IMG/VR virus record: IMGVR_UViG_3300032118_001249
Coordinates: 1 to 23,313 of that record
DNA from: a virus
Direction: 5' to 3' (one strand)
DNA length: 23,313 nt
A program made the position numbers and the translations under genes. The notes beneath the pieces are model-generated. The model was not told the DNA's origin. It ran no database searches and saw only the letters and a list, made by a program, of their open reading frames with translations. Shown one piece after another: positions 3,111 to 13,433 of the stretch (position 1 is the first letter of the stretch; every line of letters begins with the position of its first letter).

Positions 3111-4265
3111 ATGGAAGACAAGGGTGCGACGACGTTTGGGGACCTGAAGCTGGCGCCGCGCGAGCGGACATGGGACCGCGGGGCCGCCGACAAGCGCGTG
3201 CGCGCGTGGGCGGGCGCGGACGAGGCGCCGAATGCCAAGTATCGGCGCGCGTTTTTCTGGTTCGACGGCGAGGCGGCAGACACATTCGGGGCTTACAAGC
3301 TCCAGTTCGCGGACATCATCGACGGCTCACTGGTGGCAGTGCCGCGGGGTGTCTTCGCCTGCGCCGGTGCGATCCAGGGGGCGCGCGGCGGCGTGGACAT
3401 ACCCGCGGATGATGTGCCGGCCGTGAAGTCGCATGTCGGCAAGTACTACGCGAAGATGCGCCGCGAGTGGGACGACGAGACCATTCAGCCGCCCTGGAAG
3501 AGCAAGGCGGCGGCTGCGGGCGGCCAGGAGAAGACAGGCATGGAGTTCAAGGTTTACCCGGCGGAGTTCAAAGTGGACGGCGACGGTAGGCACGTCGAGG
3601 CCTACGTCAGCGTGTTCGGCAACGTGGACGAGGGCGGCGACCGCGCCAACCGGGGCATGTTCCAGCGCTGCCTGGACGACCCAACATTGCGCGATGAGAT
3701 CGCTTTCTGCTGGCAGCATCAATGGTGTTGGCCGATCGGGGTGCCAGAAGTTATAGAGGAGCACTCAACCGGGCTGTTCACTCGCTCCTACGTATCGGAG
3801 ACGACATGGGGCAACGACGCGCTGGTGCTGCTGCGCGATCGCGCGGTGAAGAAGATGAGCATCGGCTACAACACGGTTCGCAGCATGACCGACGATGAGA
3901 CGGGAATTCGCGATCTCCTCGATGTGGATTTGTGGGAGTATTCGCCCGTGACGTGGGCGATGAACCGCATGGCGCGAGTTACCGGGGTGAAGAATGGCGA
4001 CTCCGCGCTAATCCTTAAGCGGTTCGTGGCGATGCAGGACGAGATCACCGCTGGCAGGATGCTGGACCCGAACTACCTTGACCGGATGATCGACACCCTC
4101 AAGGCGCTCCGCGAGGCGACGCCGGGCGGCCGCCCGCCCTCGCCGGACGGAGACGGAGAGGCCCTCGATCCGGCGGTGAAGGGAATCGCGGCAGACCTGT
4201 CGGCATTCGTGCAGCGGGTGAAGCTGGGAGAGGGCCTCGAAGAGTTCGCCCACTCGGTCCGCTGA
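3111..4265 (+). CDS. HK97-type prohead maturation protease with an extra N-terminal domain
   Basis: Start is ATG 3111, one base after the preceding stop, with GGGAG upstream; 384 residues. Residues about 55-116 form a short domain (AYKLQFADIIDGSLVAVPRG, then ARGGVDIP and a VKSHVGKYY end) that I recall as a common N-terminal attachment to phage proheads proteases and related phage proteins; its role is unknown. Residues about 144-300 are the S78/U35 prohead protease: EAYVSVFGNVDEGGD, catalytic-type H203 in FCWQHQW, S250 in VKKMSIGY, and the LWEYSPV motif near residue 274. It cleaves the capsid protein delta domain and assembly partners inside the prohead. The C-terminal 80 residues are charged and rich in Pro/Gly around 338-350, plausibly a scaffold-like tail. 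An internal start at 3540 could make the protease domain alone. Confidence 0.9.
   Translation: MEDKGATTFGDLKLAPRERTWDRGAADKRVRAWAGADEAPNAKYRRAFFWFDGEAADTFGAYKLQFADIIDGSLVAVPRGVFACAGAIQGARGGVDIPADDVPAVKSHVGKYYAKMRREWDDETIQPPWKSKAAAAGGQEKTGMEFKVYPAEFKVDGDGRHVEAYVSVFGNVDEGGDRANRGMFQRCLDDPTLRDEIAFCWQHQWCWPIGVPEVIEEHSTGLFTRSYVSETTWGNDALVLLRDRAVKKMSIGYNTVRSMTDDETGIRDLLDVDLWEYSPVTWAMNRMARVTGVKNGDSALILKRFVAMQDEITAGRMLDPNYLDRMIDTLKALREATPGGRPPSPDGDGEALDPAVKGIAADLSAFVQRVKLGEGLEEFAHSVR
3526..3542 (+). promoter_or_regulatory. Internal ribosome binding site and in-frame ATG at the protease domain boundary
   Basis: AGGAG at 3526-3530 lies 9 nt before an in-frame ATG at 3540 (M144 of the long protein). Translation from here would give a 241-residue product that begins directly at the prohead protease domain and lacks the N-terminal domain. 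The motif and spacing are seen; use as a start is inferred. Confidence 0.4.
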
Positions 4266-4289
4266 GTCGCATCTGACAGTCGGATAAGA

Positions 4290-4388
4290 GGCCCGGTCGG
4301 CCTGTAGGCATACAGGCCGCCGTGAAGACGGACAAAAGCCCTGACACCTTAGCTAAGGGGGTGCCGGGGCTTCGTCTTTGGCCGGGCC
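4290..4388 (+). promoter_or_regulatory. Three-way-junction RNA leader upstream of the major capsid gene (copy 1)
   Basis: Hand folding gives a closing stem P1 (GGCCCGGTC 4290-4298 with GGCCGGGCC 4380-4388, 9 bp with one G-U). It encloses hairpin P2 (GGCCTGTA 4299-4306 with TACAGGCC 4311-4318, tetraloop ggca) and a two-part hairpin P3: AAGACG 4325-4330 with CGTCTT 4373-4378, a 5-nt 5'-side bulge, then 4336-4348 with 4360-4372 (13 positions, one G-U and one A-C mismatch). The same plan recurs at 12690-12785 before the tail tube gene. ATAAG also precedes both copies. P3 plus the following CGTCTTT could act as a weak intrinsic terminator, so attenuation is an alternative to a leader role. Function is unknown. 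Confidence 0.72.
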
Positions 4389-4397
4389 ACAAACTAC

Positions 4398-4421
4398 CCC
4401 GCCGAGAGCGGGAGAACGGAG
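4398..4421 (+). promoter_or_regulatory. Small hairpin and Shine-Dalgarno site of the major capsid gene
   Basis: CCCGC 4398-4402 pairs with GCGGG 4408-4412 around a 5-nt loop, directly before GGAG at 4418-4421, which sits 7 nt before ATG 4429. The site decides the capsid start at 4429; the longer frame from TTG 4378 lies inside the leader structure and has no ribosome binding site. Confidence 0.6.
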
Positions 4422-4428
4422 TCGCACA

Positions 4429-5736
4429 ATGGGTGATGAGTTGAAGACCATCGGCGAGAGCATCGAGGCCCTGAAAGGGAGCTTCGACAAGCGCGTCGGT
4501 GAGATGAAGAGCGGCCTCGAGAAGGTTGAAAAGCTCGAGGGCGCGATCGAGGACATCAAGGCCAAGGTGACGGCCGGCGAAGCCACGATCGGTGAGCTGG
4601 TCGAGGCCAAGGAAGAGGTCAAGAGGCAGCGGACCGCCCTTGACGAGACCGCCAAGAAACTGGACGAGGTCGTGGCGCAGTTGGCTGCGGCCAGCAAGCG
4701 ACTGGACGAGGCAGAGGCGACAGCCAAGCGGCTGCCGCAGATGCTCGGCGACGAGGAGAAGAGCATCGGTGAGCGCTTCGTGGAGTCCGAGATGTACAAG
4801 GGCTTCAACGCGCAGACCGACAAGGCCTCCGGCGGCGTCGTCGTCAAGAATTTCTTCCCGCGCCACCGCAAGGCCGGGGAGATCACCGGCGCCAGCCTGG
4901 GCAACGTCGGCTCGTACTTCTACCAGCCGACGCGTGTGCCCGGCATCATCGGGCCACCGATGCCGGCGCCGCGCATCCGCGACCTGTTCCCGGTCCTGCC
5001 GACCTCGGTCGGCGCGGTCGAGTTCGTGCGTGAGACCGGCTTCACGAACAACGCGGCGGTTCAGGACGAGACGCCGGCCGACAAGCCACAGTCGGCCCTG
5101 ACCTTCGAGAGCAAGTCAGTGACGGTCAAGACGATCGCCCACTGGCTGCCGGCTTCGCGGCAGATCATCGCCGATGCCCCGGCGCTCCAGCAGTACATCG
5201 ATACGCGGTTGGTGCACGGCCTGGCGCTGGTCGAGGATGACGAGATCCTGAACGGCTCAGGCGGCGGCACACACCTCGAAGGCCTGCTGACCGACGCGGA
5301 CATCCAGCTCTACAGCGAGGCCGCGGGCGAGACCAAGGCCGACGCGGTGCGCAAGGCGATGACGCTCGTCGAGATCGCCGAGTATGCCGCGAGCGGGGTC
5401 ATCCTACACCCCAATGACTGGGAGGACATCGAACTCCTGAAGGACACCCTCGGCCGGTACATCTGGGCGAACGTCCAGCAGTCCGGCCAGCGACGGCTCT
5501 GGGGTCTGCCGGTCGTTACCACCACGAGGATCGACGAGCTGACCTTCTGCGTCGGCGCCTTTGACCTGGCGGCGGCGCTGTGGACAAGGGAAGATGCGAC
5601 TGTGCGGATCTCGGATCAGCACAGCGACTTCTTCATCAAGAACCTGCTGGCGATCCTGGCGGAAGAGCGCCTAGCGCTCACCGTCTATCGCCCGGAGTCT
5701 TGTGTGCTCGGGACCTTCTCGGCGGCGGGTAGCTAA
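4429..5736 (+). CDS. HK97-fold major capsid protein with N-terminal delta (scaffold) domain
   Basis: A 435-residue protein from ATG 4429 with GGAG 7 nt upstream. Residues about 1-110 are a highly charged, heptad-patterned helical region (ESIEALKGSFDKRV onward, many K/E/L repeats), as expected for the delta domain that serves as internal scaffold and is removed by the protease encoded just upstream. From about residue 115 (SIGERFVESEMYKGF) the HK97 fold begins: N-arm, an E-loop region around GFTNNAAVQDETPADKPQ, a spine-helix segment ASRQIIADAPALQQYID, and the P- and A-domain region around VILHPNDWEDIELLKD, ending in a typical capsid C terminus (LLAILAEERLALTVYRPE). It forms the capsid shell. 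The structured leader upstream and strong hairpins downstream set it apart from the tightly coupled genes around it, fitting a need for higher expression. Confidence 0.95.
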   Translation: MGDELKTIGESIEALKGSFDKRVGEMKSGLEKVEKLEGAIEDIKAKVTAGEATIGELVEAKEEVKRQRTALDETAKKLDEVVAQLAAASKRLDEAEATAKRLPQMLGDEEKSIGERFVESEMYKGFNAQTDKASGGVVVKNFFPRHRKAGEITGASLGNVGSYFYQPTRVPGIIGPPMPAPRIRDLFPVLPTSVGAVEFVRETGFTNNAAVQDETPADKPQSALTFESKSVTVKTIAHWLPASRQIIADAPALQQYIDTRLVHGLALVEDDEILNGSGGGTHLEGLLTDADIQLYSEAAGETKADAVRKAMTLVEIAEYAASGVILHPNDWEDIELLKDTLGRYIWANVQQSGQRRLWGLPVVTTTRIDELTFCVGAFDLAAALWTREDATVRISDQHSDFFIKNLLAILAEERLALTVYRPESCVLGTFSAAGS

Positions 5737-5745
5737 CGACAACCA

Positions 5746-5770
5746 ATGACCCCGCCTCCTGTGGGGTCAT
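5746..5770 (+). terminator. Hairpin just after the capsid gene
   Basis: ATGACCCC (5746-5753) pairs perfectly with GGGGTCAT (5763-5770) around a 9-nt loop, starting 9 nt after the capsid stop. No U-run follows directly, so it may stabilise the capsid mRNA 3' end or act with the next hairpin rather than terminate alone. Confidence 0.55.
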
Positions 5771-5771
5771 G

Positions 5772-5812
5772 TGGGGCCGGCCGGGCTTTCCTCCTTTCAC
5801 CGGCCGGCCCCA
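5772..5812 (+). terminator. 13-bp GC-rich hairpin with a CCUCC-containing loop, just before the methyltransferase start
   Basis: Bases 5772-5784 (TGGGGCCGGCCGG) pair without mismatch with 5800-5812 around a 15-nt pyrimidine-rich loop. The loop contains CCTCCTTTC, the same as the usual anti-Shine-Dalgarno tail of bacterial 16S rRNA. The ribosome binding site GGAG (5814-5817) of the next gene lies immediately 3' of the stem and is complementary to CTCC in the loop. It could attenuate transcription or lower translation of the methyltransferase; it lacks a clear U-tract. Confidence 0.55.
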
Positions 5813-5825
5813 TGGAGATAACACA

Positions 5826-6590
5826 GTGACAGACGCGGCTGATGCAACCGGATACATGCAGCGGCTTCAGCGGACCTGGGAGGCGTGGGCGCAGGCCGAC
5901 CCTTTATGGGCGATCTGCACGGTCCCAGCGCTGACCGGGAGGCGCTGGGGGCCGGAGCAGTTCTTCGCTACCGGCACGGCCCACGTCGCCGAGCTGATGG
6001 GCTACCTAGATAGTCTGCTCCCCAACCTGCCGCGCGGTGCGGCGCTGGACTTCGGCTGCGGCGTGGGCAGGCTGACGCAGGCGCTGTGCGCGGAGTTCCG
6101 CCAGGTCTGCGGAGTAGACGTGTCGCCCACCATGATAAGGTTGGCCGACGAGTTCAATCGCTGGCCCAACCAGTGCCGGTATCTGGTGAACGACCAACCC
6201 GACCTGAGTAGCTTCGAGGGCGGCGAGTGGGATCTGATTCACTCACACAACGTGCTCCAGCACATCGCGCCCGCGGCTACGGCGAGATACCTGGGTGAGT
6301 TCGTGCGCCTACTCACGCCGTATGGCGTCGCCGTGTTCCAACTCCCGTGTCGTCCTCGTTTTCGACCCGCTGGCTCGCGACCGTGGGACAGCTTGGATTC
6401 CTGGGGCGTCCCCGATGGAGGGCCCGTGAATGAGGATGGGCTGCAGCCCGCGATGGAGATGTATGGGATCGAGAAGCACGCCGTGATCGAGGTCATTGAG
6501 CAGGCCGGCGGCGAGGTGATCGAGGCCGCGACAGACCCGGCCCCGATTGTGGACTGGGAGAGCATCCGGTACGTAGTGAGGCGAGCATGA
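5826..6590 (+). CDS. Class I SAM-dependent methyltransferase (Methyltransf_11/25-like)
   Basis: Start chosen at GTG 5826, 8 nt after GGAG 5814-5817; the upstream ATG at 5769 falls inside the hairpin. 254 residues. The Rossmann-type SAM fold shows motif I LDFGCGVGRL near residue 75, the acidic strand-2 end in CGVDVSPTMIRLADE, and the post-motif DLIHSHNVLQHI, which typifies small-molecule, sugar or lipid methyltransferases more than DNA methylases. No DNA target-recognition domain and no DPPY-type motif is seen. It opens a run of four genes (three methyltransferases and a glycosyltransferase) joined by 4-nt overlaps, so the likely substrate is a sugar or glycan. The acceptor is not identifiable from sequence. 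Confidence 0.85.
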   Translation: MTDAADATGYMQRLQRTWEAWAQADPLWAICTVPALTGRRWGPEQFFATGTAHVAELMGYLDSLLPNLPRGAALDFGCGVGRLTQALCAEFRQVCGVDVSPTMIRLADEFNRWPNQCRYLVNDQPDLSSFEGGEWDLIHSHNVLQHIAPAATARYLGEFVRLLTPYGVAVFQLPCRPRFRPAGSRPWDSLDSWGVPDGGPVNEDGLQPAMEMYGIEKHAVIEVIEQAGGEVIEAATDPAPIVDWESIRYVVRRA

Positions 6591-7186
6591 CGGCGACAGA
6601 CGAAGTGCAGGATACACTCGACTTCTTGGCTACCCTCGGGGGCGCTTCGCGCATGGAGTGCGAGACGCGGGTGCGCTACGCGATGGAGGTGTCGCCGCCC
6701 GCCGTCATCGTCGAGTTGGGCGTGATGGTCGGGCAGGGACTGTGCTGCCTGGGTTGCGGGGCCCGGTTCGGCCAGGGCGCGCTGAGCTTCGGCATTGACC
6801 TGTTCGGGATGCGACCGAGCGGGCAGGGAGCAGCCTACGACAACCCCGCGAACATGGCGACGGTCAGGGGCTACATCGAGCGGTTCGGGCTTTCGGAGCT
6901 GGTGACACTCATGCAGGCCGATACTGCTGAGGCTGTGGCCCAGTGGGAGGAGCCTATCGGGCTGCTGGTGGTCGACGCGGGCCACGACTACGAGCAGGTG
7001 CTGGCCGACGCGAAGGCGTGGCTGCCGCACGTCGTGCCGGGCGGTCTGCTCCTGATGCACGATGCTCGGAACCCGGCATGGCCCGGCGTTGACCGGGTGA
7101 TCAATGAGGAGATTCTGCCGAGCGGTGAGTGGGACGACGCCGAGTTCGTCCCGCCGTTTTCGCGGTGGCTCAGGAGGAAGCCGTGA
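6587..7186 (+). CDS. Class I SAM-dependent methyltransferase (Methyltransf_24-like), first of two related genes
   Basis: 199 residues from ATG 6587, overlapping the preceding stop as ATGA. It shows a SAM-binding strand-loop IVELGVMVGQG near residue 41, a second strand FGIDLFG, and the segment LLVVDAGHDYEQVLADAKAW followed by VVPGGLLLMHDARN. The D-x-x-H-x-Y motif and the GG-x-x-x-x-HD motif fit the Methyltransf_24/cephalosporin hydroxylase-like group, whose members often act on sugars in surface glycan pathways. The next gene has the same architecture with clearly diverged sequence, suggesting an old duplication or two separately acquired relatives. Its target is inferred only from the adjacent glycosyltransferase. 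Confidence 0.82.
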   Translation: MTATDEVQDTLDFLATLGGASRMECETRVRYAMEVSPPAVIVELGVMVGQGLCCLGCGARFGQGALSFGIDLFGMRPSGQGAAYDNPANMATVRGYIERFGLSELVTLMQADTAEAVAQWEEPIGLLVVDAGHDYEQVLADAKAWLPHVVPGGLLLMHDARNPAWPGVDRVINEEILPSGEWDDAEFVPPFSRWLRRKP

Positions 7187-7761
7187 GCGTGCTTTCGGAG
7201 GAGATGCAGCGCCGCTGCGCCGAGGTGCACGGTGAGATCATTCCCGAGGAAGGCTTGCTGCTGGCCGAGTTGGCGGCGCAGGTGCCCAGTGATTACACCA
7301 TCATCGAGATCGGCGCCTACAAGGGCAAGAGCACTTGCTACCTAGCGGCGGGCGCGCAGGCGGGCGGCGGCGCCATCGTCTACAGCATTGACCTGTGGGA
7401 ACGGGCGCCCTGGCCCCAGTACGCGGATCCGGCGGTGCACCGGGCGTGGGAGGATAACATCGGATGCCTCGGGCTGGTGGGGCGGGCGATCGCCATCTGC
7501 GCCAGCTCGCAGGAGGCCGCGCAACTGGTGGACGCCAACGTCGGGCTCCTGTGGGTGGACGCCGACCACACCTATGAGGGGGTGCGGCGCGACGTGGAAT
7601 TATGGTCGCCCAAGGTCGCACTGGACGGCGTGATGGTGTTCCACGACGCGGCGACCGAGGACTGGGGGGTTGCCCGGGCGCTCCGGGACTGCCTGCTTGC
7701 GGAGGGCCGCTATACATCCGAGATTCTGCACGGGTGCGCCATCGTGAGGAGAGTACCGTGA
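7183..7761 (+). CDS. Class I SAM-dependent methyltransferase (Methyltransf_24-like), second of two related genes
   Basis: Start is GTG 7183, forming a GTGA overlap with the previous stop and preceded by AGGAGG at 7172-7177; the earlier in-frame ATG 7129 lies deep in the previous gene. 192 residues. Motifs are IIEIGAYKGKST (SAM loop), VYSIDLWER, LLWVDADHTYEGVRRDVELW and GVMVFHDA, in the same order and spacing as the preceding protein. The D-A-D-H-T-Y-E motif is typical of this family and may hold a divalent metal and SAM. Tight coupling to the upstream methyltransferase and downstream glycosyltransferase suggests one modification pathway. Confidence 0.84.
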   Translation: MSVLSEEMQRRCAEVHGEIIPEEGLLLAELAAQVPSDYTIIEIGAYKGKSTCYLAAGAQAGGGAIVYSIDLWERAPWPQYADPAVHRAWEDNIGCLGLVGRAIAICASSQEAAQLVDANVGLLWVDADHTYEGVRRDVELWSPKVALDGVMVFHDAATEDWGVARALRDCLLAEGRYTSEILHGCAIVRRVP

Positions 7762-9116
7762 GAGTTCTGGGTCACATGTACCACCTTGGCTGGGGCTGGG
7801 GTGGCGGAGTCGTGACGATGTGTTTGGTGCTGGAGGAACTCCGACGGCGCGGGCATTCGGTCGGCCTGATGCTGCAGCGCGGTGCCCTCAAGCCGACCCG
7901 TAGCCACGGGGCGCGGCAGTTCGGCATCACAGACGTATACTCGGCACCGTTGCCGGTGGCGAAACGTCGGCGCTACCAGGAGGCAGACATCATCATCACC
8001 CAGGGCGAGGCGACGACCGAGGCGCTGGCACTCTGCGGGGCCTACCAGAAGCCGCTCGCTCATATGATCCACGACGAGGGTCAACTCGCCCTTTACAAGG
8101 TCAAGCCAGCCCAGTGCCAACTCGCCCTCTACAACGCGCAGTGGGCCAGGGAGGCGGCGGAGCGCAAGGGGCGGGCCGACAACGCGATGGTGCTGTACCC
8201 GTTCGTTGAGCCCGCAGACTACCGCGTCGAGCAGACCGGCGACTGCATCACGCTGGTCAACTTGTGCGAGGAGAAGGGGGGGAAGCTGTTCTGGGAGCTG
8301 GCGCGGCTGATGCCGGGGCACAGGTTCTTGGGCGTTAAGGGCGGCTGGGGCGGACAGATCGTGCCCCAGAACCTGCCACCGAATGCCGAGGTCATGGAGC
8401 ACTGCCTGGACCCGCGGGATATCTACCGGCGCACCCGCATTGTCCTCGTGCCGAGCCAGGATCTGGGCACGCCGGGGATGCGGCACTGGACCGAGAGCTA
8501 CGGGCGCATCGGGATCGAGGCGGCGGCCAGCGGCATTCCCACGATCGCGCACCCGACGCCCGGGCTGGTGGAGTCGCTGGGGGAGGCAGGGATATTCGCC
8601 GATCGCTACCAGCCGGAGCAATGGATCGAGGCGATCGAGTTGCTCGACGACGCGGAACTGTACGCCGAGGTGTCGACTGCGGCGCTCAAGCGATCGAGTG
8701 AACTGGAGCCGACCGCCCAGATGGACGCGCTCGAGGCGGAACTGGTGCGGATTGGCGCAGAGTGGCGGGAGCGCGAGCGAGCGGCCCCGCGGCCGGGCGA
8801 TGCAATCATTCCGGCGATCAGGGAGGACAGAGAGGTGAAGGTGAGAGCTTTGCGGAGGCTGTCCGGGATAGCAAGCCGCGGCGACATAGTGAGCCTGCCC
8901 GCGCAACAGGCGCGCCATCTGCTGCGCCGGCGGTTGGTCGAGCTGGTAGAGGGTGCGGAGCCGACCGAGGCAGTGCAGCCGGAGGAGAACCAGGCGGACG
9001 GTCCGCGGGAGATCGCATCGGGCGTCACGATGACCTATAGGATCGGACGCGGGCCTTCCTTTCAATCCCGCGAAGAGGCCGAGGAGCATCATCGGGCCAC
9101 CGCAGGTAAAGGCTAA
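7758..9116 (+). CDS. GT4-type (GT-B fold) glycosyltransferase with a fused C-terminal phage domain
   Basis: Start is GTG 7758 (GTGA overlap, AGGAG 7747-7751 six nt upstream); 452 residues. Residues 1-340 resemble retaining GT4 glycosyltransferases: an N-terminal glycine-rich loop GWGWGGGVVT, an ELRRRGHSVG segment, and the nucleotide-sugar binding E-x7-E motif E246...E254 in TESYGRIGIE followed by AAASGIPTIAHPTPGLVES. It should transfer a sugar from a nucleotide donor. Residues about 360-400 (KVRALRRLSG, then RGDIVSLPAQQARHLL) resemble a small domain that many phages encode as a separate protein near the capsid gene. It is followed by an acidic linker and a short tail. The gene sits between capsid and connector, so capsid or tail glycosylation is a reasonable inference; host surface glycan change is the alternative. 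Confidence 0.85.
   Translation: MRVLGHMYHLGWGWGGGVVTMCLVLEELRRRGHSVGLMLQRGALKPTRSHGARQFGITDVYSAPLPVAKRRRYQEADIIITQGEATTEALALCGAYQKPLAHMIHDEGQLALYKVKPAQCQLALYNAQWAREAAERKGRADNAMVLYPFVEPADYRVEQTGDCITLVNLCEEKGGKLFWELARLMPGHRFLGVKGGWGGQIVPQNLPPNAEVMEHCLDPRDIYRRTRIVLVPSQDLGTPGMRHWTESYGRIGIEAAASGIPTIAHPTPGLVESLGEAGIFADRYQPEQWIEAIELLDDAELYAEVSTAALKRSSELEPTAQMDALEAELVRIGAEWRERERAAPRPGDAIIPAIREDREVKVRALRRLSGIASRGDIVSLPAQQARHLLRRRLVELVEGAEPTEAVQPEENQADGPREIASGVTMTYRIGRGPSFQSREEAEEHHRATAGKG
8835..9116 (+). CDS. Possible nested gene: stand-alone small phage head-region protein from an internal start in the glycosyltransferase
   Basis: GGGAGG at 8821-8826 lies 8 nt before an in-frame GTG at 8835. Translation from there gives a 93-residue protein starting M-K-V-R-A-L, exactly at the boundary of the conserved small domain. 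That domain is usually an independent short phage protein of unknown function encoded close to the capsid gene. The simplest reading is that the glycosyltransferase gene fused to, or ran into, the older small gene while its ribosome binding site was kept. Expression as a separate product is inferred. Confidence 0.45.
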   Translation: MKVRALRRLSGIASRGDIVSLPAQQARHLLRRRLVELVEGAEPTEAVQPEENQADGPREIASGVTMTYRIGRGPSFQSREEAEEHHRATAGKG

Positions 9117-9796
9117 TGGGCGCGTGCGTTGACAGGCTGAACTTGGCGATAGGCGAGGGTAGTAGCGCGGTCAGCGAACTGGACGCGGTGAAAGCTTACC
9201 TGCGCGTCGAGCACGAGGCCGACGACGACCAGATCACGGCGCTGATCGCCGATGCCAAGCAGATCGCCGACGACTTTCTGAACAACGCCTTCGAGGTTAA
9301 GCGCGCCTATATCGTCGTGTTGGCCGCGGCGGTCGGCGACATGGTCTATGTGGACGGTATGACCTTCCGAGTGGCCGCAAGCGCGCCGGCGACCCGCACT
9401 CAGGACGTGACCACTCAGGACTTCGCCATCGGGGCCGATGACGAGGAGACGGCCGAGAACCTCGCTGCCATCATCAACGACGAGATGTACGGGGCGCTCT
9501 ACGTGCTGGCGACGCAGGATAGCACCGAGATCGCGTTGACCTGGCGGCGGCCCAAGCGGGAGCCGGTGACTGCGTCCGAGGTGAGCACCAGCCTATCGGT
9601 GCGGGCGAGGCGGACGCAGGTTCCCATCCCGGCGGCAGTGCGGCGAGGAGTGCTACGCACCATCGCTCAGATGTACGACCAGCGCCAGGACGGAGTGGGT
9701 GCGCAGGCGATCAGCGGGCGGGGCTCGACCAGCTACGGGGCACCGCCGCTGGCTTACGCGATGTGGGCGCCGCATCGGAAACTGCCGGGGACATAA
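9116..9796 (+). CDS. Head-tail connector (gp6-like) with an inserted domain
   Basis: 226 residues from ATG 9116, overlapping the previous TAA as TAATG. The N-terminal helices (residues about 20-60, ELDAVKAYLRVEHEADDDQ, then ALIADAKQIADDFLNN) and C-terminal helix (residues about 170-195, IPAAVRRGVLRTIAQMYDQR) match the gp6-like connector family that docks under the portal. Between them, residues about 65-165 form a beta-rich insert with VGDMVYVDGMTF, FAIGADDEETAENLAAIIND and ALTW. I recognise this as a module usually seen in phage structural and adhesin proteins (G-D-x-V-x-V-x-G-x-x-F ... TA-x-NLAAAIN). The stop codon lies right beside the TnpB element, and the protein reads through to a natural-looking end. 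Confidence 0.8.
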   Translation: MGACVDRLNLAIGEGSSAVSELDAVKAYLRVEHEADDDQITALIADAKQIADDFLNNAFEVKRAYIVVLAAAVGDMVYVDGMTFRVAASAPATRTQDVTTQDFAIGADDEETAENLAAIINDEMYGALYVLATQDSTEIALTWRRPKREPVTASEVSTSLSVRARRTQVPIPAAVRRGVLRTIAQMYDQRQDGVGAQAISGRGSTSYGAPPLAYAMWAPHRKLPGT

Positions 9797-9880
9797 GATG
9801 CCCTTGCTCAGTACCAAGAGCTTGCAGCTAGGCGTAGATGCCCGCCGCGTTCGGCAGTCTTATGGCTGCCCGGCGGATGT
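9797..9880 (-). ncRNA. Candidate omega/reRNA region at the 3' end of tnpB
   Basis: TnpB guide RNAs overlap the tnpB 3' end and run out through the right end. Here the tnpB tail can fold into a nested hairpin (9842-9847 with 9871-9876 and 9853-9857 with 9866-9870, 11 bp with a 5-nt bulge), followed on the - strand by a 4-bp hairpin at 9821-9806. The guide would come from the end of the connector gene below 9797. Exact ends are unknown; this is inferred from the family. Confidence 0.4.
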
Positions 9881-10907
9881 TCTCCGCCGCGATGGTGTCC
9901 GCGGGGCCAGAGAACCCGCACTGGACACAGGAGAAGATGCTTTGTTCGGGACGGTTAGCCTTATCGGTATAGCCGCAGGCAGGGCAGGTGCGAGAGGTGT
10001 TGCGCGGGTCTACCGCGATCACCGTCACGCCCGCGCGCCTGGCCTTGTACTCGATAAAGCTCCGCAACTGTGCGAACGACCAAGAGGAGAGAGTGGCCCT
10101 CTGGGGTCGGCGAGCCGTAATCCGCGAGCGAATCCCTGTCAGTTCTTCCAGGGCGATTCCTCGCTTCGTGCCTTCGGCCGCGGCCACGATCTCCTTCGAG
10201 ATACAGTGATTCTCATGTCTCGCAAAGCGAGACTCTTTGCTGTGTCGTTTGCGCAGAAGGCGCTTCGCAGACTTCGTGCCCTTCTTCTGCAACTTGCTTC
10301 GCAGGCGGCGGTGACGATGGCGCAAGCCGTTGACGACCGCGCCGGAGTAGACTCGGCCGTCCGAGTCCGCGGCGATGTTGGCCACCCCCATGTCAACGCC
10401 GAGGAAGTCACCCACGTCCCCCGGTTCCGGGCCTTCGACGTTACAGACGGCGAACAGATACCATTTGCCCTCGACGACAGCGAGGTCCGATTCGCCCTGC
10501 TGGGTGGTGAGCAGAGCGCGCTGGCGGTCGCCGCAGACGAAAGGAATGGTCTGGCGGCCAGCGACCGTCCAGATCGAGACTTCCGAACTGGAGAGCCTCC
10601 AGCGCAGGATGCGCGAGTCGTAAGAGATAGCTCCGGCAGGCCGAAAGATGCGTCTGCTCTTCCGGTCCAGTTTGTACGCATCCGCGACCTTAGCGATGCA
10701 ACGCACGATCACCTGGGCGGAGAGTCCGAACTGCCCTCGCAAACAGTGATAGGTAAGCCGGTGCAGTGCGAACTGCCCGAATATACGCTCTCGCCAAGCT
10801 ACCTCCGAGATGTGGTTGCACGCGGCATTGGCCTTCTCCAGTGTATCGCGGAGAGCCTTGGCTTGCTCGCGGGATGGCAGAAGTTTCACCTGGGCGGTCA
10901 ACTTCAT
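9828..10907 (-). CDS. tnpB: TnpB RNA-guided nuclease (OrfB), complete
   Basis: 359 residues, ATG complement at 10905-10907. The RuvC-like triad is present: D172 in FLGVDMGVANIA, E254 in IALEELTGIR, and D337 in GPADTIAAENI. The zinc ribbon is intact with CPAC (308-311) and CVQC (327-330). The N-terminal MKLTAQVKLLPSREQ segment and the basic KLQKKGTKSAKRLLRKRHS stretch are typical. The last motif is D-T-I-A-A where most relatives have D-x-N-A-A. Known TnpB proteins cut DNA guided by an RNA made from the element's right end, which favours element retention. Here it lies antisense inside a late phage operon, with its own promoter. Local GC looks lower than in neighbouring genes, in keeping with separate origin. 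The protein looks functional. Confidence 0.93.
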   Translation of the reverse strand: MKLTAQVKLLPSREQAKALRDTLEKANAACNHISEVAWRERIFGQFALHRLTYHCLRGQFGLSAQVIVRCIAKVADAYKLDRKSRRIFRPAGAISYDSRILRWRLSSSEVSIWTVAGRQTIPFVCGDRQRALLTTQQGESDLAVVEGKWYLFAVCNVEGPEPGDVGDFLGVDMGVANIAADSDGRVYSGAVVNGLRHRHRRLRSKLQKKGTKSAKRLLRKRHSKESRFARHENHCISKEIVAAAEGTKRGIALEELTGIRSRITARRPQRATLSSWSFAQLRSFIEYKARRAGVTVIAVDPRNTSRTCPACGYTDKANRPEQSIFSCVQCGFSGPADTIAAENIRRAAIRLPNAAGIYA

Positions 10908-10913
10908 AGTTCA

Positions 10914-10942
10914 AGTATAGCAGGGATGGTGGCGTTAGTCAA
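10914..10942 (-). promoter_or_regulatory. Sigma70-type promoter of tnpB, predicted leaderless
   Basis: On the - strand TTGACT (10942-10937) and TATACT (10919-10914) are separated by exactly 17 bp. The ATG begins 6 nt after the -10 box (10907), so transcription would start at or within one or two bases of the start codon and give a leaderless mRNA. The TTGAC of the -35 box is also the candidate insertion target, so the promoter may be completed by the insertion site itself. Confidence 0.7.
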
Positions 10943-10969
10943 GCCATTGGCATTGTGTGAGGGCATCAC

Positions 10970-11158
10970 GTGAGGACCATTCGGGGCCATGACATACAGC
11001 GGCTGGCAAATGACACAGGCAGGACCGTGCCGATCCCGCTGTCGAGGTACAAGAGCGGACTACCTGGGCGGGTGTACCAGTGCAAGCACTGCGGACTCGT
11101 GCTCGCGCCCGCGCTGATGCGGGAGCACCTACGGAGAGCACACCGAATAGTCAGATGA
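10970..11158 (+). CDS. Small C2H2-type zinc-finger protein
   Basis: 62 residues from GTG 10970, with GAGGG at 10959-10963 six nt upstream. The C-terminal half holds a C-x2-C...H-x4-H finger: YQCKHCGLVLAPALMREHLRRAH. The rest is basic and polar. Single-finger miniproteins occur in phage genomes, usually with unknown roles in DNA or RNA binding or protein contact. It is the first phage gene after the TnpB element and overlaps the next reading frame as ATGA, so it belongs to the structural operon. No more precise function can be given. Confidence 0.65.
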   Translation: MRTIRGHDIQRLANDTGRTVPIPLSRYKSGLPGRVYQCKHCGLVLAPALMREHLRRAHRIVR

Positions 11159-11271
11159 GGAAAAGCAGGCGACCGAAGCCGAAGCGCGGACTACCGAAGC
11201 CGTCGCAGGCGCAGAACCTGCGTGGCCCGAGCGAGCGTCAGCGCCTCGCGGGACCGCGGGAGACGAAGTGA
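11155..11271 (+). CDS. Short highly basic peptide of unknown function
   Basis: 38 residues from ATG 11155. It overlaps the zinc-finger stop (ATGA) and ends in a GTGA junction with the next gene, the same coupling used across the operon. It starts MRKSRRPKPKRGLPKPSQ and is rich in Arg, Lys and Pro, so it may bind nucleic acid. It has no clear Shine-Dalgarno site of its own and would depend on coupling. It could instead be a non-coding bridge, since an open frame of this size is not strong evidence in GC-rich DNA. Confidence 0.45.
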   Translation: MRKSRRPKPKRGLPKPSQAQNLRGPSERQRLAGPRETK

Positions 11272-11603
11272 TGCTAGCGGCCGACGTATACCGCGACCGC
11301 GTCGAGATCGAAACGCGCACGGAGCCCAGCGGCACGTTTCACGAAAACGCGGGCGACTGGAGCCTCCTTGCCACGCGCTGGTGCAGGCGCACGCAGGTGA
11401 GTTCGCAGTACGCGATGGTGCTGGCGCAGCGCGGGCACGAGGAGCGAGTCGAGCGCCTACTGTTCCGAGGCGAGATGGAGTTTGACATCGCCAACACGCG
11501 GTTCGTGCTCAGTGGCCGGTACTACCGGGCGATCGAGCCCTGCGAGCATGACGCGGAGTCGGACGAGACGACGGTGCTGATAGCGCAGGAAGTGCAGCGA
11601 TAA
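11268..11603 (+). CDS. Head closure / head-tail adaptor protein (SPP1 gp16-like)
   Basis: 111 residues from GTG 11268, or 110 from ATG 11271; GGGAG at 11258-11262 fits either, with ATG having the more usual 8-nt spacing. The short beta-rich fold with DRVEIETRTEPSGTFHENAG near the N terminus, a central AMVLAQRGHEERVERLLFRG and a C-terminal FVLSGRYYRAIEP matches the phage head-tail joining family. Such proteins form the ring that closes the connector. Position between connector and gp10-like gene supports this. Its stop overlaps the next start as TAATG. Confidence 0.72.
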   Translation: MMLAADVYRDRVEIETRTEPSGTFHENAGDWSLLATRWCRRTQVSSQYAMVLAQRGHEERVERLLFRGEMEFDIANTRFVLSGRYYRAIEPCEHDAESDETTVLIAQEVQR

Positions 11604-12208
11604 TGCCTCAGATTACAGCCTTCGGGGCGGGCGGCAACTGCAAACTGACCAGCTTCCTCGGCGAGGTGGCCAAGCGTTTCGAGGAAGAGGCGCGCGCTCG
11701 CACGTTCGCGGCCGCCAATGTGGTCAAGCGGGACTGGCTGAAGATGCTGAGCGGGCCGCGGCATGGGCGCGTCTACCGACGGCCGGGCAGCAAGGCACGC
11801 CGCGCCAAGGGCGTGGTAAAAGCCAAGCGCCGGCCAGGGATGAAGGGCATGTCGCCGACGGCAATAGGCGCGTCTTATATGCTTGGAGCGAACGCCGGGC
11901 ACTATATCGCATCGGCGCCCGGTGAGGCACCGGCCTCGGTCATGGGCGACTTTCGCCGGTCTATCAAGGCGGTCTCGAAGCGGGGCGAAGGCGGCGAATG
12001 GGAGGCGCTGGTTGGGAGCGACATGGAGAAGGCACCTTGGCTCGAGTTCGGGACAGGGCGCGCCGGCGCCTCGGCGGGGCAGGGCGACCTGCCTGCGGGC
12101 TACACACACGGGAGCAAGTCCGGCATGGCGCCGCGGCCTTCTCTGCGGCCGGCGCTTGAGCACACGCGGGGTGCGGTGCGCGGCATTCTCGGCAGGAGGG
12201 TGATATGA
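11603..12208 (+). CDS. HK97 gp10-like neck/tail completion protein
   Basis: 201 residues from ATG 11603. The C-terminal half is diagnostic: HYIASAPGEAPASVMGDFRRS (about residues 99-119), then APWLEFGTGRAG and MAPRPSLRPAL, the usual PGE-P-x-x-TG-x-L and LEFGT...RP-x-LRPA motifs of this family. A basic stretch around residues 52-80 (GRVYRRPGSKARRAKG) is longer than usual. The protein is expected at the head-tail interface. Start and end overlap its neighbours (TAATG and ATGA). Confidence 0.85.
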   Translation: MPQITAFGAGGNCKLTSFLGEVAKRFEEEARARTFAAANVVKRDWLKMLSGPRHGRVYRRPGSKARRAKGVVKAKRRPGMKGMSPTAIGASYMLGANAGHYIASAPGEAPASVMGDFRRSIKAVSKRGEGGEWEALVGSDMEKAPWLEFGTGRAGASAGQGDLPAGYTHGSKSGMAPRPSLRPALEHTRGAVRGILGRRVI

Positions 12209-12666
12209 GCGACCGCGACACAGTGAAGGCGATCATCGAGGAAGTGCGCGACATCCTGGCTGAGGACGACACGCTGCTGGCGTTGATACCGCCTGTGCCG
12301 CCGGCCGACGAGGGAGCCTTGCGCTACTACCATATCTGGGCGCCGCCGAACTGCAAGTTCCCGTATTTCAGTGTGACGGTCGGCATTCGCGACGAGCAGG
12401 ACGAGAGTAGCTACCAGGTGGCAGATATTGAGCTGAAGATCTGGGATGCTGACCCAGCGAGCGGGCGCGTGCTCGACATGCGCAAGCGCATCCTCGTGCT
12501 GCTCAACCGGCGGGTGCTGGAGTGCGACGAATTCAAGGGTCGCATCCGCTTCGTGAGCGACTTCGATCTGCCTGAACCCGAGCAAGAAGTGTGGGCACGC
12601 CCGATGATGTGGACGATGCGACTGTACCCGACAGCCGAGGTGGCAGCGATGAAGGCGCGGGGATAG
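12205..12666 (+). CDS. Tail terminator / tail completion protein
   Basis: 153 residues from ATG 12205 in an ATGA overlap. The pattern of an N-terminal helix (DTVKAIIEEVRDILAEDDTL), then YHIWAPPNCKFPYFSVTVGI, a strand with QVADIELKIWD and a helix RVLDMRKRILVLLNRR resembles the DUF3168/gpU-like tail terminators that cap the tube next to the neck. It lies immediately before the tail tube leader, the usual order in siphoviruses. The family match is by pattern and position rather than a single signature motif. Confidence 0.75.
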   Translation: MSDRDTVKAIIEEVRDILAEDDTLLALIPPVPPADEGALRYYHIWAPPNCKFPYFSVTVGIRDEQDESSYQVADIELKIWDADPASGRVLDMRKRILVLLNRRVLECDEFKGRIRFVSDFDLPEPEQEVWARPMMWTMRLYPTAEVAAMKARG

Positions 12667-12689
12667 ACCCGCGGTGACAAGGGCATAAG

Positions 12690-12785
12690 GGCCCGGTCTA
12701 GGTGGGGTAGCTCCCCGCCGAACCGAGAGAGCACAGGCCTCCGTTCTCGATCGAGAGAGCACGGAGGCTTCTCTTTTGGCCGGGC
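12690..12785 (+). promoter_or_regulatory. Three-way-junction RNA leader upstream of the tail tube gene (copy 2)
   Basis: P1 is GCCCGGTC 12691-12698 with GGCCGGGC 12778-12785 (8 bp, one G-U), the same sequence as P1 before the capsid gene. Inside are P2 (GGTGGGG 12701-12707 with CCCCGCC 12713-12719, one G-U, 5-nt loop) and P3: AGAGA 12726-12730 with TCTCT 12770-12774, a 6-nt 5'-side bulge, then GCCTCCGT 12737-12744 with ACGGAGGC 12761-12768. P3's loop contains the palindrome TCTCGATCGAGA. Order, the one-sided bulge and overall length (96 against 99 nt) match copy 1, while the P2 and P3 sequences differ with pairing kept. P3 followed by TTCTCTTTT could also act as an intrinsic terminator. Confidence 0.72.
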
Positions 12786-12798
12786 AACTTGGACGTTC

Positions 12799-12843
12799 CG
12801 GGCATAGCCCGAGACCATAAGCGGCGGGAAGGCCGCGAAGGAG
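12799..12843 (+). promoter_or_regulatory. Two small hairpins and Shine-Dalgarno site of the tail tube gene
   Basis: CGGGC 12799-12803 pairs with GCCCG 12807-12811, and GCGGC 12821-12825 with GCCGC 12832-12836. AAGGAG at 12838-12843 follows, 8 nt before ATG 12852, which fixes the start there rather than at ATG 12789 inside the leader. A similar small hairpin sits between P1 and the capsid ribosome binding site in copy 1. Confidence 0.55.
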
Positions 12844-12851
12844 ACACAGAG

Positions 12852-13433
12852 ATGCTGATGCCCAGTGACGTGGGGTTGAACGGCCTCTCGACCGACACCC
12901 CGAACCGCATCTTGATCGACGCCGGGGCGATCTATGCGGGCTTCACCGACGAGGACAATCCCGGAATCTGCGTCGGGGCCACCCGCGGCGGCAGCCGCTT
13001 CAACGTGGAGCGGGAGATCCGCGAGATCGCGGTGGACGGCGCTATCGGGCCGACCAAAGGGTTGCGCCGACGGTCGCGTGTGGTCGCGACGGTGGAGACC
13101 AACGCGCTCGAGGTGTTCCCCAACAACATCGAGCGGCTGATCGCAGGCGCCGACGTGGACGACAGCGATCCCGATTTCACGGTGATCACGGGCGGGCCGG
13201 TCGAGGACGGTGACTACATCAGCAACATCGCGCTGGTGGGGACCGTCCACGGCAACGACCTGCCGTTCGTCGGGATCATCATGAACGCGCTGCCGGAGAG
13301 CCCGCTGACGATCCCGCTGGCGCCGCAAGACGAGGCGGTGATCGCCGCCAAATGGACGGGACACGCGGCGCTCGCGACTCCATACACGGAGCCGTGGGAG
13401 TTGTGGGTTCCAGCCGATATAGGCGGCTCGTAA
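12852..13433 (+). CDS. Major tail (tail tube) protein
   Basis: 193 residues from ATG 12852. The segment CVGATRGGSRFNVEREIREI followed by VDGAIGPTKGLRRRSRVVAT (about residues 38-77) is the hallmark of a common siphovirus tail tube family, in which the start of the protein forms the tube-lining beta strands. Later parts (EVFPNNIERLIAGADV, SNIALVGTVHGNDLPFVGII) also fit. It polymerises around the tape measure to make the tail tube. Like the capsid gene it is set apart by a structured leader upstream and a spacer downstream, so it is probably translated independently and at high level. Confidence 0.88.
   Translation: MLMPSDVGLNGLSTDTPNRILIDAGAIYAGFTDEDNPGICVGATRGGSRFNVEREIREIAVDGAIGPTKGLRRRSRVVATVETNALEVFPNNIERLIAGADVDDSDPDFTVITGGPVEDGDYISNIALVGTVHGNDLPFVGIIMNALPESPLTIPLAPQDEAVIAAKWTGHAALATPYTEPWELWVPADIGGS

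Follow-up and report, generated by a model that had tools for sequence, protein, structure and literature searches.

The late operon in positions 1 to 23,313 of the virus record IMGVR_UViG_3300032118_001249 (IMG/VR; hereafter the window, 23,313 nucleotides (nt) in all) contains two copies of a previously undescribed folded RNA, one before the major capsid gene and one before the tail-tube gene. The element is a conserved three-way-junction RNA of the sense strand, the shape of which is kept by covariation, and in the window and in other phage contigs it stands at the head of the mRNA segments that encode the capsid, probably scaffold together with capsid, and the tail tube. By its position before capsid (or scaffold) and tail-tube genes it probably controls the amounts of the most abundant virus proteins. 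Outside the model phages it is poorly known how one late transcript yields hundreds of capsid and tube subunits as well as proteins needed in few copies; a portable RNA module before the capsid or scaffold genes of three head types and before the tube gene offers a direct handle on that question.

Two copies of a three-way junction in the window

The late operon is otherwise tightly packed. The intergenic gaps that separate the prohead protease gene from the capsid gene (4266-4428) and a connector-type gene from the tail-tube gene (12667-12851) each carry a strong RNA fold. The same three-way junction is predicted for 4290-4388 and 12690-12785, with TGACAxxxGxATAAG ahead of each. Helix P1 (8-9 base pairs (bp)) closes a junction that holds a hairpin, P2, and a long arm, P3, the latter consisting of a lower helix, a bulge on the 5' side and a long upper helix. 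The features of the two leaders were as follows.

4274-4289, + strand: unpaired A-rich segment TGACAGTCGGATAAGA adjoining P1 of the capsid copy (a related motif stands before P1 in most copies)
4290-4388, + strand: three-way-junction RNA, capsid copy (fold z -5.5; matched by covariance model R1 with E 5e-8, though left out of R1); P1 4290-4298/4380-4388, P2 4299-4306/4311-4318, P3 about 4325-4379
4347-4358, + strand: perfect 12-nt palindrome CCTTAGCTAAGG at the P3 tip of the capsid copy
4371-4379, + strand: U-rich tract TTCGTCTTT after the upper P3 hairpin, then GG, capsid copy
4397-4413, + strand: small hairpin CCCCGCCGAGAGCGGGA ahead of the ribosome binding site in the capsid leader
4429-5736, + strand: major capsid gene, HK97 gp5-like (PHROG 10; 41% to HK97-type capsids by tblastn)
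12675-12689, + strand: unpaired A-rich segment TGACAAGGGCATAAG adjoining P1 of the tube copy
12690-12785, + strand: three-way-junction RNA, tail-tube copy (fold z -5.05; matched by model R2); P1 12691-12698/12778-12785, P2 12701-12707/12713-12719, P3 12723-12777
12745-12756, + strand: perfect 12-nt palindrome TCTCGATCGAGA at the P3 tip of the tube copy
12769-12777, + strand: U-rich tract TTCTCTTTT after the upper P3 hairpin, then GG, tube copy
12799-12836, + strand: two hairpins (CGGGC..GCCCG and GCGGC..GCCGC) linked by AGACCATAA, ahead of the ribosome binding site
12852-13433, + strand: tail-tube (major tail protein) gene (PHROG 885)

P1 (GCCCGGTC/GGCCGGGC) is identical in the two copies, P2 differs (GGCCTGTA/TACAGGCC in the capsid copy against GGTGGGG/CCCCGCC in the tube copy), and so do the sequences of P3. 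ATAAG stands just ahead of P1 in both copies, P3 terminates in TTTGG or TTTTGG, and the U-rich 3' strand of lower P3 directly adjoins the P1 strand GGCCGGGC. These sequences and pairings agree with an earlier note on this DNA, as does a further hairpin before each ribosome binding site, which is kept in the tube copies of relatives. The note had also placed the P3 bulge alike in both copies; it does lie on the 5' side in each, with sizes a little less equal than noted, at about 5 nt for the capsid copy and 3-4 nt for the tube copy.

Folding energies were -62.2 kcal/mol (capsid copy) and -60.0 kcal/mol (tube copy), corresponding to the z values given above relative to 200 dinucleotide shuffles, none of which was equally stable, and both copies ranked among the roughly 10 most stable of 2322 stretches of 110 nt. 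Folding energy alone is not decisive, because stable folds are common in the GC-rich DNA of the window.

Further copies in uncultured phages

The earlier note had proposed a covariance-model search as a test. Scanning viral contigs with the capsid protein turned up five close relatives, with 65-74% identity over their best segment. Each has the same kind of element before the capsid gene; L005 and L007 hold the same copy. Model R1 was built from the window tube copy and the capsid copies of two relatives. In 655 kb of sequence it recovered the window capsid copy, all capsid and tube copies of relatives, among its finds the tube copy of L143 with an altered P1 (GGCCGGCG/CGCCGGCC), and copies in a different phage group, with no other convincing match. 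Pattern scans together with model R2 added copies in L180, L181, L189, L192/L208 and L206 (E 4e-14 to 2e-12; none of them part of the model). As these last five copies came from scans demanding the P1 sequence, with P2 and P3 left free, the apparent conservation of P1 sequence is inflated. Altogether, 19 distinct copies were collected from about 15 distinct uncultured phage contigs, and the expectation of further copies before the capsid and tube genes of relatives was thus confirmed.

No match to R2 was obtained in 330 kb of other phage DNA, a DNA pattern for lower P3 combined with R2 gave no extra copies, and a scan with a tube-protein alignment returned known contigs only. Capsid scans of genome contigs gave nothing with an alignment query and five distant loci (<=51% identity) with a single-sequence query. 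Run on four genomes and on a set of 396 genomes from a single phylum, R2 gave no match, an empty result in genome contigs showing little. The more distant capsid relatives that were tested (<=51% identity) had no element.

Covariation and strand

In the 19-copy alignment, 93.4% of cells pair, and 25 of the 34 pairs are changed on both sides. The covariation score was 0.596, compared with 0.225 (standard deviation 0.016) for shuffled controls and 0.10-0.14 with partners slid, figures to be read with the caveat that the alignments were fitted to the model structure and that the copies are related; the 14-copy alignment gave the same picture. With covariation this far above both controls, the proposal that changed sequence with kept pairing marks a conserved RNA was borne out. 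G-U cells numbered 88 and A-C cells 13 (46 and 13 without the columns in which G-U is commonest), and this excess of G-U points to the sense strand as the RNA. Structurally, lower P3 is the weakest helix; it is largely lost in L169, L171 and L175, where the U tract is retained.

Palindromic tips of P3

Every one of the 19 copies has a perfect palindrome, 12 nt long without exception, at the tip of P3, a feature absent from the earlier note. Twelve different sequences occur (for example, CCTTAGCTAAGG, TCTCGATCGAGA, TCTCGCGCGAGA and CCTGTGCACAGG). Among other hairpins of 4 bp with a 4-nt loop in the same contigs, 54 of 1241 (4.4%) have self-complementary loops. The rule was spotted on 14 copies, and the copies found later (L180, L181, L189, L192/L208 and L206) all conform. 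An intramolecular fold demands the outer 4 bp of such a tip; it cannot demand that the central 4 nt be self-complementary. Between close relatives the core changes from GCGC to GGCC or GATC with the flanks unchanged, so that neighbouring loop bases that cannot pair intramolecularly change together. Self-complementary apical loops kept by compensatory change, as found here, would be expected of a dimerising (kissing-loop) RNA, and coordinated loop changes in tips of fixed length are unusual and can be tested as a sign of natural mRNA dimerisation.

The loops of P2 mostly contain AGCU or GAUC; the P2 tip is non-palindromic in the window and G004 capsid copies, and the G003 tube copy is without such a P2 motif. 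The 3' arm of P3 often contains a near repeat of the 3' half of the palindrome, and two alternative registers are therefore available. Three readings of the palindromes were considered, namely contact between RNA molecules, a dyad acting at the DNA level, and mutation by template switching; the off-centre P2 palindrome and the G-U bias favour the RNA reading.

Gene context

The element precedes HK97 gp5-type capsid genes (PHROG 10) in the window and in G001-G004, fusions of a protease with a gp23-type capsid protein (PHROG 207/138) in G007, G010, G011 and L175, and PHROG 885 tail-tube genes in the window, G001, G002, G003, G008, L206 and L208/L189. In L180 and L181 it precedes genes following the portal gene that are probably scaffold genes, an assignment resting on position and composition only; a PHROG 371 capsid gene comes next in L181. 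Terminase (71%) and a number of further genes are common to the gp23-type phages and the gp5-type group, the capsid genes of which belong to different families. Since three capsid families (PHROG 10, 138 and 371) and tube genes are involved, the element tracks the role of the gene and not its ancestry. The earlier note had placed both copies ahead of genes for high-copy proteins, which holds in the window, and relatives carry copies at the same two places.

Several observations accompany this distribution. In G007 (L132:12442-15525) the prohead protease appears to be fused in-frame to the gp23-like major capsid protein (1027 amino acids), and the terminase of G007 is 71% identical to that of G004, the capsid of which is of the HK97 gp5 type, indicating head-module exchange. 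In the tube copy of G003 (L128:7837-7948) the junction is remodelled: AAAGCA, ahead of P2, is the partner of the U tract, and there is one hairpin more; this copy is still a match to the model. A reduced version lies at L137:4432-4530 (G004:24432), just before the portal gene, and consists of TGACAATCGCATAAC, a hairpin and TTTTTCGTTTGGG, with no P2.

A proposed role in processing and 5'-end protection

The simplest reading is that the leader sets how much stable capsid and tube mRNA builds up. Tentatively, we regard the copies as a new family of leader RNAs, found in late mRNAs of one group of uncultured tailed phages and acting in cis through processing and 5'-end protection. Cleavage of the long late transcript would fall either within the exposed A-rich linker ahead of P1 or inside the bulged P3 helix of two turns, as by host RNase E-like or RNase III-like enzymes, and the 5' end of the capsid and tube mRNAs would then be sealed by P1 and the following hairpin. 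Capsid and tube messages with a sealed 5' end would thereby outlive the portal, protease and connector parts and be more translated.

This proposal is consistent with the location of the element ahead of the highest-copy virion genes, in three capsid families and tube family PHROG 885, with an unstructured A-rich motif adjoining P1, and, in the window as in its relatives, with a further hairpin ahead of the ribosome binding site. A double-stranded helix of about 20 bp with an asymmetric bulge is present in the folds predicted for the two window copies; lower P3 is poor in L169, L171 and L175. The RNase III processing signals of phage T7 mRNA are single irregular hairpins. Like them, the element is intercistronic, stands upstream of phage genes and has a long hairpin, some two turns in length and interrupted by an asymmetric internal loop or bulge. 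Unlike the T7 sites, it has P1 and P2, palindromic tips and a U tract, and it is a putative cleavage site only.

Two promoter-like sites were found in 3800-13200, neither of them at an element, and there was no sigma-70-type site at either element. The sigma-70 region-2 domain (PF04542) had no match in nine records; PF00940 had none either, and its control was silent; the contigs are incomplete. A promoter reading of the ATAA motif was judged unlikely, given that the upstream hexamers are not conserved, that the motif is degenerate in the G003 and G004 capsid copies, and that no sigma factor match was obtained.

Three observations weigh against this proposal. The simpler relative of the element before the portal gene of G004, which has the same upstream motif, lacks P2; the U tract persists in L169, L171 and L175 even though it no longer pairs with the purine strand there, a fact left unaccounted for by processing on its own; and palindromic tips are superfluous for protecting a 5' end.

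Alternative explanations

The kept U tract fits a conditional transcription attenuator, an explanation that we consider rather unlikely overall, in which the GC-rich P3 hairpin and the U tract together would work as a leaky intrinsic terminator, with folding of P1 and lower P3, which hides the U tract, or else a phage or host factor deciding whether transcription reads through into the capsid and tube genes. As in intrinsic terminators, a U-rich tract comes directly after a GC-rich hairpin. The 9-nt tract after P3 has T at positions 7-9 in all 19 copies, and in the first 14 copies it was 78% T, compared with 18% T across the elements overall; U itself seems to be selected, as three copies lose the pairing yet retain U. 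However, terminator scores were borderline, mostly near or below zero, a terminator scan called neither element on the + strand, and, unlike in intrinsic terminators, the U tract is interrupted (by C or G) and runs into a P1 strand. The element also stands before key genes, and a terminator before the genes most needed would be odd unless read-through were high.

Dimerisation of the RNA, with the palindromic P3 and P2 tips kissing or annealing between two identical mRNAs as a concentration-dependent switch or as a substrate for double-strand cleavage, is unlikely. The 12-nt palindromes in 19 of 19 P3 tips, in 12 sequences and over the low background given above, argue for it, as do the coordinated changes from GCGC to GGCC or GATC in close relatives. 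There is also precedent in the phage-associated GOLLD and ROOL RNAs, which form homo-oligomers with kissing loops (PMC12286853). On the other hand, the P2 tips of the window and G004 capsid copies are non-palindromic, the G003 tube copy lacks the P2 motif, and palindromes can arise by template switching or act in DNA. In the corresponding, equally improbable picture of a homodimeric mRNA leader, identical capsid (or tube) mRNAs would meet via their self-complementary loops of fixed length, and because the loop sequence varies from copy to copy each leader would recognise its own kind only. If this were so, dimerisation would rise with mRNA concentration and act as a switch on how mRNAs of the most abundant virion proteins are processed, terminated or translated. 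The explanations overlap, because dimerisation could serve both processing with protection and attenuation.

Processive antitermination by RNA, in which the nascent element binds RNA polymerase and keeps it going through the late operon in the manner of HK022 put or B. subtilis EAR, is improbable to a further degree. EAR is a precedent for a structured RNA in mid-operon. The put RNA acts alone on RNA polymerase (PMC9378689), and the element is, like put (PMC9378689) and EAR, a cis-acting phage or operon structure of similar size. Unlike these, it has no Rfam match, and antitermination is only a candidate role for it. Terminator-like sites in this part of the operon are at chance level (5 against 4.4 expected), no match to put or EAR was found (the comparison being the Rfam scan alone), and the tight link to capsid and tube genes would be left unexplained.

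Slightly less credible again is an operator RNA, at which binding of a phage or host protein would repress or activate capsid and tube translation. Regulation at the level of translation is common among phage structural genes, and the loop and linker motifs of the element are conserved; against this, the loop letters vary freely while palindromy is kept. A shared structural-protein repressor, or autoregulation by one structural protein as the earlier note had suggested, is unlikely, because different capsid families and tube genes share the element.

The least probable explanation is a mutational by-product, in which replicating DNA undergoes repeated template switches that copy one hairpin arm onto the other, so that palindromes and covariation would stem from mutation, with no selection on RNA. 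Template switching can create and maintain perfect hairpins and invert loops (PMC8794818), and a near repeat of the palindrome's 3' half does lie on the 3' side of P3. Left unexplained are the constant gene positions, the upstream motif, P1 and the retained U tract, as well as the bias to G-U, the unvarying palindrome length of 12 nt and the off-centre P2 palindrome.

Relation to known elements

In Rfam 15, no family reached its gathering threshold in the window (the best sub-threshold hit was Pxr, 24.4 bits with 80 needed), and a relaxed threshold gave nothing relevant for the tube copy. The lack of an Rfam match agrees with the earlier note, in which the element was not recognised as a known class. 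Literature searches in open-licence papers, which did not cover the main candidate catalogue of structured RNAs, gave no description of it, and the nearest sequenced phages had no DNA match to the window and none useful to either element. An annotated terminator of Streptomyces phage R4 matched the capsid copy with E = 0.3, which was taken as chance. On inspection, no core of a hammerhead, HDV or other ribozyme was seen.

In Cluster K mycobacteriophages, ESAS elements are imperfect inverted repeats, 17 bp in size and conserved in sequence, that are linked with SAS, a 13-bp translation-start motif (PMC3203893). In contrast to SAS/ESAS, the sequence of the present element varies and a branched RNA is kept; the 13-bp SAS GGGATAGGAGCCC at the start codon, as defined in PMC3203893, is absent from both window leaders. 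The ornate RNAs GOLLD, ROOL and OLE are likewise conserved, structured and partly phage-borne, with kissing loops between copies, but they are several-fold larger, and GOLLD and ROOL often lie near tRNA islands (PMC12286853), whereas the element is about 110 nt and intercistronic.

Flanking motifs and neighbouring genes

A motif related to TGACAAnCGnATAAS stands before P1 in most copies and is degenerate in the G003 and G004 capsid copies. By eye, most copies have some 8 nt between the stop codon of the upstream gene and the TGACA motif, as at 4263-4274 and 12664-12675 in the window and in relatives; P1 would thus start about 25 nt past the stop, roughly clear of a terminating ribosome. Unstructured A-rich linkers flank the element, TGACAAnCGnATAAC before it and, in many copies, CTCATAG or ACCATAAG after it; L175, L169, L132, L208, L189 and L181 have CTCATAG/CTCATAA in common, downstream of P1 and ahead of the ribosome binding site.

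Further hairpins follow the element in the window and its close relatives, ahead of the ribosome binding site. In five tube leaders, another conserved block separates the element from the tube gene (window 12799-12836, L110, L111, L128 and L112), in the order hairpin CGGGC..GCCCG, linker GAGACCATAAG, hairpin GCGGC..GCCGC and AGGAG. Between the capsid gene and the connector genes, window positions 5769-7761 hold two to three methyltransferase-like genes (PHROG 4752, tRNA methyltransferase; PHROG 2675, DNA methyltransferase); PHROG 2675 matches two neighbouring open reading frames with overlapping profile ranges, possibly a duplication.

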